Shown here: positions 55,142 to 64,000 of the stretch, piece by piece
Layout: each line of letters starts with the position of its first letter
Position numbering within the stretch: the stretch's first letter is position 1
From: Natronoarchaeum mannanilyticum
GTDB taxonomy: Archaea; Halobacteriota; Halobacteria; Halobacteriales; Natronoarchaeaceae
Reading direction: 5' to 3'
NCBI RefSeq assembly: GCF_039522665.1
Contig: NZ_BAAADV010000001.1
Location: forward strand, 496,001 to 560,000
Length of the DNA: 64,000 nucleotides
Translations under genes and position numbers: made by a program
The notes under the pieces: model-generated
What the model saw: the letters and a program-made list of their open reading frames with translations, nothing else
Database searches by the model: none
Told to the model about the DNA's origin: nothing

Positions 55142-56491
55142 ATGGCAGATTACGGACCCGAGTCGGACGACGACGGGACGCCGCGGTGGACCCGCGCGCA
55201 GGCGTCGGGGATCGAGCGCAGTCCCGACGCCGTCGCGCCGATCGTCTACCCGCCCGACGAGCAGGACGCCCCGGAGATCCACGTCTGGGACACCTGGTTC
55301 CTGCGGAACCGCGACGGGTCGATCGCGGAGATCGACGGCTACCGCGTGACGTTCTCGCTGACGGCGCCGGCCGACCTGCTGCCGGGCAAGCGCCACGACG
55401 TCGCGACGATTCGGTACTTCTACTCCCGCGACGGACGAACCTGGCACTGCGGCGGCCCGGTGTTCGAGGACACCGACGAGCAAAGCTCGGCGAGCCCTCG
55501 CTCGACTTCGTCTCGCGAGGACGGAGCCGCGCTGGGCTCGCGCCAGTGGGCCGGATCGGCGCTGTACGACGAGGACGGCGCCGTCTACGTCTACTACACC
55601 GCCGCCGGCGAGCGCGGCGAGGACGAGCTGACGTACACCCAGCGGATCGCCGTCGGCGCCGGGGGACGCGTCGAGACGACCGACGAGAGGCTCTCAATCG
55701 AGGGGCCGTTCGACCACGAGGTGCTGCTCGAACCCGACGGCGATCGCTACGAGCGGGAGGACCAGTCCCGCGGGATGATCTACACGTTCCGCGACCCGTG
55801 GTTCTTCGAGGACCCCGAGACCGGCGAGACGTGCCTGCTGTTCGAGGCCAACACCCCGACCCAAGAGGGCAGCGACGCCGGCGACGGGGATCCCCATCAC
55901 CAGGAGTTCAACGGCAGCGTCGGCATCGCCGTCTCCGAGAGCGGGGATCCGACCGAGTGGGAGCTCGACGACCCGCTGCTGGAGGGCGTCTCCACCAACC
56001 AGGAGCTCGAACGGCCCCACGTCGTCGTGCGCGACGACCGGTACTACCTGTTCCTCTCGAGCCACGAGCACACGTTCGCGCCGGGGATCGAGGGGTACGA
56101 CGCGCTGTACGGCTTCGTCGCCGACTCGCTTCGGGGCGACTACGAGCCGCTCAACGGGAGCGGGCTGGTCGTGACGAACCCGGCGAACGCGCCGTTCCAG
56201 ACGTACTCGTGGGTCGCGTACCCCCACCGCGAGGAGTTGCTGGTGAGTAGCTTCTTCAACTACTACGATCTCCGCGGGCTGTCGCTGGACGACGTCGCGG
56301 AGCTACCGCCCGAGGAACAGCAGCGCCGGTTCGGCGGGACGCTCGCGCCGACGCTCCGGCTCGCCCTCGACGGGACGGAGACGCGCGTGCTCGGCGCGCT
56401 GGATCACGGCCACCTGCCGCTTCCGGACGAGGAGCTGCCACCGCTACTCTCGGAGTACCGGAGCGAGGATCCGGAGCAGAGCGAGTACTGA
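55142..56491 (+). CDS. Glycoside hydrolase family 68 fructosyltransferase (levansucrase/inulosucrase/invertase)
   Basis: A 449-residue five-bladed propeller enzyme acting on sucrose. The nucleophile is Asp50 in HVWDTWFL, the transition-state stabiliser Asp218 in TFRDPWFF, and the acid/base Glu290 in ELERPHVV. All three GH68 residues are present. No signal peptide or Tat motif is visible (N-terminus MADYGPESDDDGTPRW), so it looks intracellular or is exported by an unknown route. It converges on a GH32 gene. GGAGG and GGTTTTTCC lie upstream of the ATG. Levan synthesis, inulin synthesis or hydrolysis cannot be told apart by sequence. Confidence 0.93.
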   Translation: MADYGPESDDDGTPRWTRAQASGIERSPDAVAPIVYPPDEQDAPEIHVWDTWFLRNRDGSIAEIDGYRVTFSLTAPADLLPGKRHDVATIRYFYSRDGRTWHCGGPVFEDTDEQSSASPRSTSSREDGAALGSRQWAGSALYDEDGAVYVYYTAAGERGEDELTYTQRIAVGAGGRVETTDERLSIEGPFDHEVLLEPDGDRYEREDQSRGMIYTFRDPWFFEDPETGETCLLFEANTPTQEGSDAGDGDPHHQEFNGSVGIAVSESGDPTEWELDDPLLEGVSTNQELERPHVVVRDDRYYLFLSSHEHTFAPGIEGYDALYGFVADSLRGDYEPLNGSGLVVTNPANAPFQTYSWVAYPHREELLVSSFFNYYDLRGLSLDDVAELPPEEQQRRFGGTLAPTLRLALDGTETRVLGALDHGHLPLPDEELPPLLSEYRSEDPEQSEY

Positions 56492-56581: not shown

Positions 56582-58994
<2,413 letters not shown>

Positions 58995-59564
58995 ATGAGT
59001 TTGATCGAACAGTGGACGGGCGTAACGAAGTTCATGGTAACTGAACCGGACGCGTTCATCGACCAGTACGACGAGGATCACGGGATCGGGTATCCGATCA
59101 AGTTCGTGGCGCTGTCGGTGATCGCCATGGCGCTGCCGATCACGCTGCTGATGGTACTCGCGAACCTCTCGTCGCCGGCCGATCTCAGGGCGGCCGCGAT
59201 CATCGGCGCCGCGATCGTGCTCATCGGGTTTGTCGCGTCGATCATCGAGATGCTCCTCGTTCACGGCGTCGTCTACGCGCTCGGCGGGCGCGAGGGGTCG
59301 GTGTCGACGTTCGAGGCGTACGCGTTTCCCTCGGCCGTCAGGCTCGGTCTGGCCTGGATTCCCCTGGTCAACCTTGCCGTCGGTTTCTACGGACTCTACT
59401 TGCAGATCAAGACGCTGGCGTCCTTTCAGGGCGTCTCGTCGGGACGGTCCGCCGTCGCGTTGGTCTTCGCCTCGCTCCTCGTGCTGCCGACGATGGTGAT
59501 CGCGATCGCCGTGATCGCCGCGTTCTTCCTCGAGCTCGGCGGGGGTGGCGGGGCGCCAGTTTGA
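58995..59564 (+). CDS. Yip1-domain membrane protein
   Basis: A 189-residue protein with an N-terminal amphipathic stretch (IEQWTGVTKFMVTEPDAFIDQY) and four to five membrane helices. VHGVVYALGGREGSVSTFEAYAFPSAVRLGLAWIPLVNLAVGFYGLYLQIKTL is the Yip1/YIF1 pattern, the A-Y-x-x-x-P motif included. Prokaryotic Yip1 proteins have unknown roles, perhaps membrane organisation. The promoter is strong and the gene stands alone. Confidence 0.85.
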   Translation: MSLIEQWTGVTKFMVTEPDAFIDQYDEDHGIGYPIKFVALSVIAMALPITLLMVLANLSSPADLRAAAIIGAAIVLIGFVASIIEMLLVHGVVYALGGREGSVSTFEAYAFPSAVRLGLAWIPLVNLAVGFYGLYLQIKTLASFQGVSSGRSAVALVFASLLVLPTMVIAIAVIAAFFLELGGGGGAPV

Positions 59565-59619: not shown

Positions 59620-59901
59620 ATGTACGCGGGACTGGTCGACGGCACGGGGCGGATCGAATCGTCAACGACCGAAGGCGAGGGCCATCGCCTACGGATCGAC
59701 GCGAACGAGCTCGTCGATCCCGCGGTCGGTGACAGCGTGAGCGTCGCCGGCGTCTGCCTCACCGCGGATCGGTTCGCCGTGGCGGTGCTCCCCGAGACGT
59801 ACGACCTGACGACCCTCTCCGAAAAGGATCCGGGCGATCCGGTCCACCTCGAACCCGATCCCGTAGCGACGTACGTCGAGCGCCAGCTCTCGACGGCCTG
59901 A
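59620..59901 (+). CDS. Single-barrel riboflavin-synthase-like lumazine-binding protein
   Basis: A 93-residue protein. It starts MYAGLVDGTGRIES like barrel 1 of bacterial riboflavin synthase (MFTGIVEE-x-G), has VGDSVSVAGVCLTA and VLPETYDLTTL (barrel-1-like NGVCLT and PET), then GDPVHLEPDPVATYVERQ. That last part matches the end of barrel 2 (VN-x-E-x-D-x-x-AKYVE). Full enzymes have two barrels of about 95 residues each. This looks like a fusion of the front of barrel 1 with the end of barrel 2. It may bind flavin or lumazine without making riboflavin, or be a remnant. I start it at ATG 59620. Confidence 0.72.
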   Translation: MYAGLVDGTGRIESSTTEGEGHRLRIDANELVDPAVGDSVSVAGVCLTADRFAVAVLPETYDLTTLSEKDPGDPVHLEPDPVATYVERQLSTA

Positions 59902-59994: not shown

Positions 59995-60561
59995 ATGGGA
60001 GATACCGTTCTGCAGATCGACGGCGATCGATCACGGACAGAAGTCGCGTCGACGCTTCGCGCACTCGCCGAGCAGCTCGACCGCGGCGAGGAGGTCCGGC
60101 TCGTCGGTGACGGCGAGACGATCGGGGTCCGGCCGGCCGACGAGCTGGCCTTCGAGCTGGAGGTCGAGCAGGGGTCGAACGGCGACCGCGAGATCGAGGT
60201 CGAGATCGAACTGGAGTGGACCGAACCGTCCGAGTCGCCGAGCGACGCCGAAGCGGCGTCCGACGCCGAAGTGGCATCGGAAGCCGCCGACGAGCTTTCG
60301 GACGCCGAGGCGTCACCGGCCGCGCCCGAGGAGACGGACGTCGATAAGGCGGTGCCGGACGACGCCGGCACGATCGCGAGCCTCGCGCGGTTCGAGGTGT
60401 ACCGCGACCGCGCCGACGAGTGGCGCTGGCGGCTAGTCCACCGCAACGGGAACATCATCGCCGCGAGCGGCGAGGGGTACACGACCCGACAGAACGCCGA
60501 AAAAGGGATGCGCAGCGTGATGCGGAACGCGCCCGGCGCGAGCATCCTGCGCGGCGAGTAA
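59995..60561 (+). CDS. amphi-Trp domain plus DUF1508 (HVO_2922-like) protein
   Basis: A 188-residue, two-domain soluble protein. Residues 1-78 are an amphi-Trp-type domain (SRTEVASTLRALAEQLDRGEEVRLVG, ending IELEW). A low-complexity Ser/Asp/Ala linker spans about 80-125. Residues 128-188 are a YegP/DUF1508 unit (RFEVYRDRADEWRWRLVHRNGNIIAASGEGYTTRQNAEKGM). DUF1508 units usually pair or dimerise; here one is joined to another fold. Function unknown. Confidence 0.85.
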   Translation: MGDTVLQIDGDRSRTEVASTLRALAEQLDRGEEVRLVGDGETIGVRPADELAFELEVEQGSNGDREIEVEIELEWTEPSESPSDAEAASDAEVASEAADELSDAEASPAAPEETDVDKAVPDDAGTIASLARFEVYRDRADEWRWRLVHRNGNIIAASGEGYTTRQNAEKGMRSVMRNAPGASILRGE

Positions 60562-60581: not shown

Positions 60582-62333
60582 CTACTTCTCCTCGACGTGG
60601 CGAACCGAGGAGGCGACGCCGCGGGTGCTCTCGGCCATCTCCGGGCCGGACATCGTCGCGCGGCCGACGCCGAAGGCCTTCCGCCCCTCGATGACGATCT
60701 CGTCGCCGACGCGGATCTCGTCGTCGGCGTCGACGATGCCCGGCGCCAGCACGTCGCCGTGGGGCACGAAGGCGTCGATCTCGACGCGCTTGGTCGGGGC
60801 TGGGCTCTCGACCCACCGGCGAGCGCCTTCCAAGGTGAACGCGAGGACGCCGTAGTTGGGCACCATCGCGGCGAGCTGCTCGCCGTCGGCGTCGTGGACG
60901 CGCAGCTTGGGGTAGCGGCTCTCCATCGAGATGTCGTCGAACAGCTCGTCGCCCGCACCGGGACCGAACTGGTAGTCGGCGATCGCGCGAACGGTGTTGT
61001 GCTCGCGCTCGCGCTTCGAGAACTTGAGCTCGCCCTGCATCGTGCTGGCGAGGTTCGCGAGCGACTCGTCGTCGGTGGGGTGGTCCGCGACGGTGTACTC
61101 GAAGTCGAGGCCGAGCTCGGCTTCGACGCGCTCGCAGATGTCGCGGTACCCCTCCTCGGGGACGTGCGCGACGACCCGCGGATACTCGTTGCGCCGGAGG
61201 TACGCCTCTAACACGTCAGCGACGAATCGCTTCTCGTCCTCGGACCAGCGCCCGGTCACCACGGAGTCGTAGTGCTGAGCGGGATAGGTGGTCTCCAGCT
61301 CCTGGGGGACGACGCCGATCGGGCTGGTCATCGAGACGGTGTGGCCGCGGAACTGGACGGCGTCGTGGAACTGCCCGTGGCTCTGGGACTCGCTGTAGGG
61401 TTTCTCGGCCGAGCACGGCACCAGCACGAGCGGGTTGTCGAACCGATTCTCGTAGCGCGTCGTGACGCGCTCGGCGAACCGCTGGATCTCGACGCGCCGG
61501 ATCGTGTCTTCGGTCGCGGAAACGAGTTCCGACCCGCGCAGGACGGGCGTGCGCTGTTCGAGATAGGACCACTGCTGGTCGAACTGGCGGAACGCGGCGG
61601 TGCACCACTGCTCGTGGCGAGCCTGTCCCTCGATGTAGTCCCGGAGGCGCCCGGCGCGGATGCGCTCGCGGACGGTCCCGAGTTCGGCTCGCAGCGCGTT
61701 GACGTTGTGCTCGACGCAGTCCTCGCGGTCGAACTCCTCGACCGACTGCTGGCAGGCCGGGCAGGCGCAGGGGAGTTCTTGTAGGTCCGAGAGGAAGTGC
61801 TCGCCCTCACTGGTGAGATACTTGCCCTGGGTGCCTTTCACCACGGCGCGGTCGGCGTCGAGTAGGTCGACGCCGGCGTAGACGAGCGTGGCGACGTTGG
61901 CCGGCGTCGCGACGCCCGAGAGGTACAGCCCGCTGTCGGCCGGGATCGCCTCGCGCGTCTCGACGACGGCGTCGCGGAACGCGCTGCCGTGGCCGACGAC
62001 ATTTTGAGTGCCCGAGAGGACGTACGCGTCTGCGCCGAAGTCGTCGGCCGTGTCGGGATCCACGACGACCGCGCTGGGGTAGTCGACGTCGGGGTAGTCG
62101 ACCGCGAACGACTCTTTGACTTCGTCGGCCGTTCCGGAGGGAAAGCCGCGGTGGGGCAGGATCGTGAGCTGGCTCTCCGATCCTTCGGGAAGCTCGCGGT
62201 CCTCGGGCCACAGGCTGCCGGCGTCCTCCGCGACGTCGTCGACGAGCGCCGGCGTCGTCAGCGGCTCGTCGAGGCGGAGCTGGGCGATCCGCGCGGCGGC
62301 GTCCCGCTCCAGCACCTCGAAGTAGTCGGTCAT
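60582..62333 (-). CDS. arcS: Archaeosine synthase subunit ArcS (TgtA2)
   Basis: Converts preQ0 at position 15 of tRNA towards archaeosine with a lysine donor and partner RaSEA where present. The 583-residue protein has a TGT-like N-terminal region that lost the catalytic residues, with a zinc site (CACPACQQSVEEFDREDCVEHN). The ArcS motif PCSAEKPYS follows, and a C-terminal PUA domain (about 505-583; VLAPGIVDADDEIRVGDEIVI). It lies just downstream of tgtA in the same direction with 288 bases between, keeping the pathway together. Confidence 0.94.
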   Translation of the reverse strand: MTDYFEVLERDAAARIAQLRLDEPLTTPALVDDVAEDAGSLWPEDRELPEGSESQLTILPHRGFPSGTADEVKESFAVDYPDVDYPSAVVVDPDTADDFGADAYVLSGTQNVVGHGSAFRDAVVETREAIPADSGLYLSGVATPANVATLVYAGVDLLDADRAVVKGTQGKYLTSEGEHFLSDLQELPCACPACQQSVEEFDREDCVEHNVNALRAELGTVRERIRAGRLRDYIEGQARHEQWCTAAFRQFDQQWSYLEQRTPVLRGSELVSATEDTIRRVEIQRFAERVTTRYENRFDNPLVLVPCSAEKPYSESQSHGQFHDAVQFRGHTVSMTSPIGVVPQELETTYPAQHYDSVVTGRWSEDEKRFVADVLEAYLRRNEYPRVVAHVPEEGYRDICERVEAELGLDFEYTVADHPTDDESLANLASTMQGELKFSKREREHNTVRAIADYQFGPGAGDELFDDISMESRYPKLRVHDADGEQLAAMVPNYGVLAFTLEGARRWVESPAPTKRVEIDAFVPHGDVLAPGIVDADDEIRVGDEIVIEGRKAFGVGRATMSGPEMAESTRGVASSVRHVEEK

Positions 62334-62621: not shown

Positions 62622-64000
62622 TTAACGGGATTGCTCCGAGAGATTCCACAGCGTCACTCGCTCGGGGATCCGCTCCAGAGCGGACGCGTGCCAGTCACGG
62701 TGACCGACGGTGAACTCGACGTCGGGGTTCAACTCCGTCAGCCGGGCGATGCCGTCGGCGGCGCGTTCGAGCGCGCGCCGATCGCAGCGGTCGGGCACCT
62801 CCGCGGTGAGCGGGTACGTTTCGGACAGTTCTCTGGGGAACGGACCGAACGGCGGAACGACGCGCCAGGATTCGTCGAAGCTGTCGGACTTGTTGCCCTC
62901 GGTGAGCAGCACTTCTCCCTCGGGATCGAGCCGGTCGAGGCGCTTGTGGTGACGAACGACTTCGGGGCGGTCCGCGCTCTCGGCGGAGAGGTAGAAGAAG
63001 GCGTTCTTGGAGGCGGGATCCGATCGTTCGAGCTGCTCGGCGTGATCGCACAGCGCGCGATAGCCGTCGAGCATCGCGGGATGGGCGCGGGCGCGGGCCT
63101 CGACGAGTTCCAGCAGGTCGCCGTCGCGGATCGCCTGCTTGATCCGGCGGATCTCCTGGAACGTGACGTGGAGGTTGTGGGCGGCGAGTTCCTCCTCCTG
63201 AGCGCGGTCGTCGAGCGCGCGCAGTTCGTCCGGCGAGAACTCGGTGCAGACCGGACACGAGCAGGGCAGGTAGTCGAGTTCGTCGAGGTGCTCGGTGCCG
63301 TCGACGGTGAGATACCGGCCGTCTCGGGCGTACAGGGCGTAGGCGGCCGAGTCGAACAGATCGCAGCCCATCGCGACCGCGAGCGCGAACATCATGGGGT
63401 GGCCGGCGCCGAACAGGTGGACCGGCGCGTCCTCGCCCAGCCCGCGCTTGGCGGCGGCGACGGCGTCGACCATGTCGCCGTACCGGTAGTCGTTCATCAG
63501 CGGGACGACCGCGCCGACCGGGAAGACGTCGAGGTCGGTCGCGTCGGCGTGCTCGGCGGCGTCCTCCCGGAGGTCGGTGTACGTCGACCCCTGGACCGGC
63601 GCGTTGACGAGCATCTCGCCCGTGTCGATCCCCTCGGCTTCCTCGAGGCGCTCTTTCGTCGTCGCGAGCTCGTCTTCCGCGCGCTCGCGGTCGACGTCCG
63701 GCGGCGTCGGGATGTCGACGGGCGTCCCGATGTCCGAGCCGATCTTTCGCTGGAAGCGCAGGATCTCGTCGGTCGTCACGTCGATCTCGCCGTACTCCGA
63801 GAGTTGAAACGACCCGGAGTCGGTCATGATCGCGCCGGGGAACTCCAGCATCTCGTGGAGCCCGCGATCGAGGGCGTCCTCGCGAAGCTCGTCGTTGCCG
63901 TGGATGATGTAGGAGTTGGTGATGAGGATCTCGGCGCCGAACTCCTCGTGGAGCCGCTTCGGGGAGATCGTCTGGAGGTTCGGGTTGACGACCGGCAGCA
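62622..64000 (-). CDS. tgtA: tRNA-guanine(15) transglycosylase TgtA (N-terminus outside window)
   Basis: Swaps guanine-15 of tRNA for preQ0, the first archaeosine step. The frame is open from 64000 to the TAA at 62624-62622, so the start lies beyond the window. An internal ATG at 63851 is not the start, because [19 protein letters not shown] upstream is conserved TGT sequence. The catalytic region [14 protein letters not shown], the [12 protein letters not shown] and [27 protein letters not shown] loops and the zinc ligands CSCPVC plus a downstream His are all present. Confidence 0.95.

Follow-up and report, generated by a model that had tools for sequence, protein, structure and literature searches.

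A natural one-barrel derivative of a haloarchaeal riboflavin synthase paralogue, formed by in-frame fusion of its two barrels

Riboflavin synthase of the alpha type (RibE; two copies of PF00677; PRK09289/TIGR00187) has become a textbook example of how an internal duplication can lead to a division of labor between the two resulting barrels, with His102 playing a catalytic role. Mutation of its second residue (F2A) in the Bacillus subtilis enzyme has been used for the accumulation of 6,7-dimethyl-8-ribityllumazine (PMC8272222). The Photobacterium lumazine protein, along with the related yellow fluorescent protein, is a riboflavin synthase paralogue used for ligand binding in which His102 is replaced (by Ile in lumazine protein); it has a single ligand site in its N-terminal half, and this half in isolation binds lumazine (PMC8272222). 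A single barrel is also available in the form of the isolated N-domain of the Escherichia coli synthase (PDB 1pkv, 1hze), and as 1pkv is a complex with riboflavin, an isolated barrel is able to bind this ligand. These latter structures are laboratory truncations, whereas the gene described here, from a 64,000-nucleotide stretch of the haloarchaeon Natronoarchaeum mannanilyticum (henceforth the window), is a natural chimera of barrel 1 and barrel 2 with a shortened hairpin and a C-terminal helix. In the freely accessible literature searched, we found no description of a riboflavin synthase that naturally has one barrel.

The gene (59620-59901, + strand, stop included) reads without interruption from ATG to TGA and encodes a 93-residue protein, MYAGLVDGTGRIESSTTEGEGHRLRIDANELVDPAVGDSVSVAGVCLTADRFAVAVLPETYDLTTLSEKDPGDPVHLEPDPVATYVERQLSTA, whose start codon fits the MYxG motif conserved in a haloarchaeal RibE paralogue, for which we coined the label R2 in the present analysis. 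The protein shows one match to the Pfam Lum_binding domain (PF00677; 63.6 bits against a curated cut-off of 27), covering positions 2-86 of the 86 in the profile. The original prediction held that it begins like barrel 1 of riboflavin synthase and ends like barrel 2, possibly owing to an in-frame internal deletion. Half-by-half scoring bears this out for both segments: residues 1-51 score higher with barrel 1 than with barrel 2 in 61/61 canonical RibE and 31/31 paralogous full-length rows, and residues 52-93 show the reverse preference in the same 61/61 and 31/31 rows. The alternative of a C-terminus matching barrel 1 along its whole length is thereby ruled out, as barrel 2 is preferred for it in every row. 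The barrel-1 segment accordingly spans codons 1-51 (MYAGLV...GVCLTADR; 59620-59772, + strand) and has 82% protein identity to barrel 1 of the R2 protein from a congener (G008). The barrel-2 segment comprises codons 52-93 (59773-59898, + strand; FAVAVLPETYDLTTLSEK...PVATYVERQLSTA), including the C-terminal helix, as delineated by the half-by-half scores, the alignment and the fold model.

Comparison with the intact R2 of the congener further establishes the in-frame deletion, and shows that 306 nt, i.e. 102 codons, are missing rather than the predicted loss of about 95 residues. The join is marked by GATCGG (59767-59772, + strand), a 6-nt microhomology which either flank could supply. It lies at offset rather than exactly equivalent positions of the two barrels, and the hairpin after GVCLTA has therefore lost about 5 residues compared with that of a parental barrel; hence, the envisaged recombination between homologous barrel positions gives way to joining at a microhomology. 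Thus, the gene at 59620-59901 is a one-barrel R2 derivative, in which an in-frame deletion of 102 codons fused the front of barrel 1 to the back of barrel 2. That 306 nt were instead dropped from an intact R2 gene during sequencing or assembly might be entertained for a draft genome in 10 contigs. This is extremely unlikely, given that the 6 nt shared at the join are too short for an assembly collapse, that the missing length is exactly divisible by three and that there is an independent one-barrel case in another family (see below); as far as the sequence tells, the second barrel was not lost through a sequencing error.

The one-barrel protein has clear homology to RibE and shares its barrel fold, yet it differs from RibE in several respects. 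It matches PF00677 once, in place of the two barrels of the synthase, and while two of its stretches match the NCBI riboflavin synthase models, they do so at 64.9 bits, well short of the equivalog cut-off of 155. Furthermore, position 102 falls within the deletion and position 2 is Tyr instead of Phe. The original prediction derived it from riboflavin synthase itself. We found that the N. mannanilyticum genome does encode a full two-barrel RibE elsewhere, as had been asked (C3:67241-67783), but derivation from this gene is ruled out, the window protein being much more similar to the congener's R2; the parent is thus a separate paralogue. The congener has two RibE-type genes, respectively encoding a canonical RibE and a two-barrel R2. 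Among the haloarchaeal genomes examined, about 30 carry R2, with a patchy distribution (two-barrel genes L098-L124 and others), and 26 R2 proteins form one clade with support of 100/99 in a tree of 85 proteins, for which an E. coli RibE sequence served as outgroup and guide to residue numbering. In that numbering, position 102 is Thr or Cys in all 26 R2 proteins covering it, as against His in 58/58 canonical RibE, and position 2 is Tyr in 26/27 R2 proteins, as against Phe in 58/58. Cys48, Ser146 and Asp185 are retained in R2 (the last in all but one), and four further R2 genes found later show the same residue signature. The window protein belongs with this group: its closest sequence is an R2, it has Tyr2 and it shares with R2 genes a neighborhood containing tRNA-guanine transglycosylase (TGT) genes.

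In light of the loss of both His102 and Phe2, R2 is probably not a riboflavin synthase, and as the parental R2 already lacked these residues, catalysis was probably gone from the lineage of the window gene before the barrel was lost. Three R2 proteins tested against PRK09289 score 177-205 bits, above the cut-off of 155, and consequently public annotation probably names R2 proteins as RibE. It could still be argued that the window protein remains a riboflavin synthase acting as a homo-oligomer of single barrels, because Cys48/Thr50 and the PET segment are retained and an isolated synthase barrel can bind riboflavin (PDB 1pkv). With no equivalent of His102, Phe2 replaced by Tyr and an intact RibE in the same genome, we regard this as very unlikely. 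The replacement of His102 is a feature that R2 has in common with lumazine protein, but the latter has two barrels and a link to the lux system, whereas R2 proteins are a separate haloarchaeal clade, with the window copy having one barrel; judged by these sequences, the resemblance is one of convergence and not of membership. As a separate observation, a GY motif occurs in the tails of 31/58 canonical haloarchaeal RibE proteins and 1/26 R2 proteins. The motif is not universal; where present, it might act as a docking signal to lumazine synthase, on the model of the cage-localization signal of the Aquifex synthase (PMC13376624).

A second gene for GTP cyclohydrolase III (GCH III), in addition to the usual copy, directly adjoins R2 in six genomes (L122:5609-6340 and L115, L102, L108, L111 and L116; genomes G203, G211, G281, G282, G288 and G358), and being seen in only these six it does not strictly define R2. 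The products of these additional genes retain the conserved HFD...TD and FVGGDN blocks, as in all rows compared. GCH III (ArfA) catalyzes the first step of haloarchaeal riboflavin synthesis (PMC8305020). One further genome (G007) has two GCH III genes and no R2, one of them being very divergent in the tree.

Examination of the gene-neighborhood of the one-barrel gene, which lies on contig C1, revealed a Yip1-domain membrane protein (Pfam; 58995-59564, + strand) ending 55 bp upstream and an HVO_2922 family protein (59995-60561, + strand; DUF1508 and amphi-Trp) downstream, neither being known to be linked to it. These are followed by a gene for an archaeal TGT-type protein (60582-62333, - strand; TGT, TGT_C2 and PUA domains) and, in the same synteny block, by a second TGT-type gene (62622-63998, - strand) that extends past the edge of the window. 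In three other genomes (G355, G281 and G358), TGT-type genes likewise occur in the vicinity of a two-barrel R2, which supports orthology and the proposal that the window gene occupies an ancestral R2 locus; the neighbors of the congener's R2 differ from this TGT block. There are no lux genes among the neighbors of the one-barrel gene, and no second GCH III gene lies beside the one-barrel gene, the single GCH III gene of the genome being on a contig other than C1. Just upstream in the window is a GH68 levansucrase/invertase-type gene (55142-56491, + strand), tail to tail with a GH32 gene (56582-58765, - strand) with an N-terminal DUF4960 match; the pair is likely a fructan-related cluster in a haloarchaeon. 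The only RibH gene of the genome is on C7. These locations bear on the idea that the one-barrel protein is a partner subunit, which assembles with either the trimer of canonical RibE or RibH into a heteromer and thereby modulates it. The barrel fold and the C-terminal helix of a trimer-forming family are predicted to be retained, which speaks for such a role, but the gene has its origin in the divergent R2 clade rather than in RibE and shows no linkage to ribE (C3) or ribH (C7), making this an unlikely explanation.

Given that the original prediction had called for single-barrel orthologues in other haloarchaea, we surveyed 552 genomes, with PF00677 domain counting being complete for two families (f4 and f7) and selected genomes, and protein searches being used elsewhere. 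The source family includes, in addition to Natronoarchaeum, Halostella pelagica (CP040678.1). No orthologous or conserved one-barrel family was recovered in these haloarchaea; instead, a single case arising independently and in parallel came to light in Halobium salinum YJ-8-S (NZ_JAODIW010000008.1; L103:4973-5269, - strand), beyond which none of the 552 genomes yielded another one-barrel gene. The half-by-half comparison indicates that here too the protein, of 98 as against 93 residues, has a barrel-1 front and a barrel-2 back. Its gene lies at an R2 locus conserved in four other genomes (G091, G148, G206 and G224). Unlike in the window protein, the join is situated before DGVSLTV and leaves a full-length hairpin. 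By these sequence features, the collapse in Halobium is an event separate from that in the window and in another family. We found no other one-barrel copies in Halobium's own family. Odd domain counts in nine other genomes (G154, G226, G474, G242, G308, G377, G300, G513 and G545) proved to reflect insertions within two-barrel genes, a truncated copy or matches below threshold.

The main rival to a functional one-barrel protein is that the internal deletion recently killed a dispensable R2 gene whose frame is still unbroken. R2 occurs patchily, in about 30 of the genomes sampled, and is hence often dispensable; each of the two one-barrel genes comes from one species, and a random deletion keeps the frame one time in three. 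Moreover, R2 genes may decay repeatedly, as there are other damaged copies of this type, namely one with an abnormal start (L101:4875-5357; G226) and a scrambled-looking third RibE-type copy (L109:4844-5566; G203). The window gene itself has neither stop nor frameshift. Over both retained segments (90 codons) its product shares 82% identity with the congener's R2, with dS of 0.79, dN of 0.11 and dN/dS of 0.14 (bootstrap 0.07-0.26), the canonical RibE pair having a dN/dS of 0.18; the pairwise value for the window gene includes the time before the deletion and may reflect earlier selection. Of the differences that could be polarized, the lineage of the window gene has 6 and that of the congener 3, a further 10 being ambiguous, and thus there is no clear acceleration on the former. 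The window protein keeps 26/28 conserved R2 positions intact, both departures being common to the congener. Together, the low dN/dS and the lack of clear acceleration argue against long decay at the level of these codons, and are compatible with a recent pseudogene because the pairwise comparison covers pre-deletion time. The two independent in-frame collapses, each of which left one complete barrel, also count against inactivation. On balance, we consider a recent pseudogene a serious contender that is nevertheless rather unlikely.

The predicted structure is consistent with a folded single barrel. With 69 barrel-level rows AlphaFold2 gave one barrel of six strands and a C-terminal helix (pLDDT 81.7, pTM 0.63), the confidence of which depends on the barrel-level alignment chosen: full-length R2/RibE rows, to which the halves aligned at different barrels, gave pLDDT 55.8 and pTM 0.36. 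Each of the 18 PDB entries matched at E <= 0.001 is a riboflavin synthase, an isolated synthase N-domain or a lumazine protein, with 1pkv, the isolated N-domain, being the best single-domain match (TM 0.79 by target). Based on these observations, we are moderately inclined to propose that the collapsed R2 barrel is a non-catalytic, homo-oligomeric lumazine- or flavin-binding carrier, buffer or sensor, which arose from a non-synthase ligand-binding R2. R2 would have lost riboflavin production and, in a manner akin to lumazine protein, would bind riboflavin, its precursor 6,7-dimethyl-8-ribityllumazine or another compound related to the pathway. After the collapse there would be one composite ligand pocket, combining GVCLT of barrel 1 with LPET of barrel 2, with the C-terminal helix retained. 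Such a barrel would fold by itself and oligomerize via its open edges or the C-terminal helix, and the homo-oligomer would have one site for lumazine or flavin per chain without carrying out dismutation, the protein being a carrier, buffer or sensor of a flavin precursor and not an enzyme. The antenna, binding or sensor role suggested originally is thus a plausible candidate function. A real weakness of the binding interpretation is that in lumazine protein residues 101-102, which lie beyond the first barrel, form part of the lumazine site and are absent in the window protein.

The R2 clade is a more general finding than the window gene. It would be labeled riboflavin synthase by current family models despite having no His102, and it has a possible link to duplicated GTP cyclohydrolase III. 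More tentatively, R2 could be a haloarchaeal non-catalytic riboflavin synthase paralogue dedicated to a flavin-pathway ligand, partly paired with a second GCH III as a separate module of the first and last steps, and at least twice reduced to a minimal one-barrel binder, in a reversal of the internal duplication of riboflavin synthase. One-barrel lumazine binders are also attractive as scaffolds of minimal size for fluorescent or sensor proteins. If true, this natural return to one barrel would have happened twice, and only in a paralogue with the key residues already lost, suggesting that catalysis requires the two-barrel layout whereas the fold does not.
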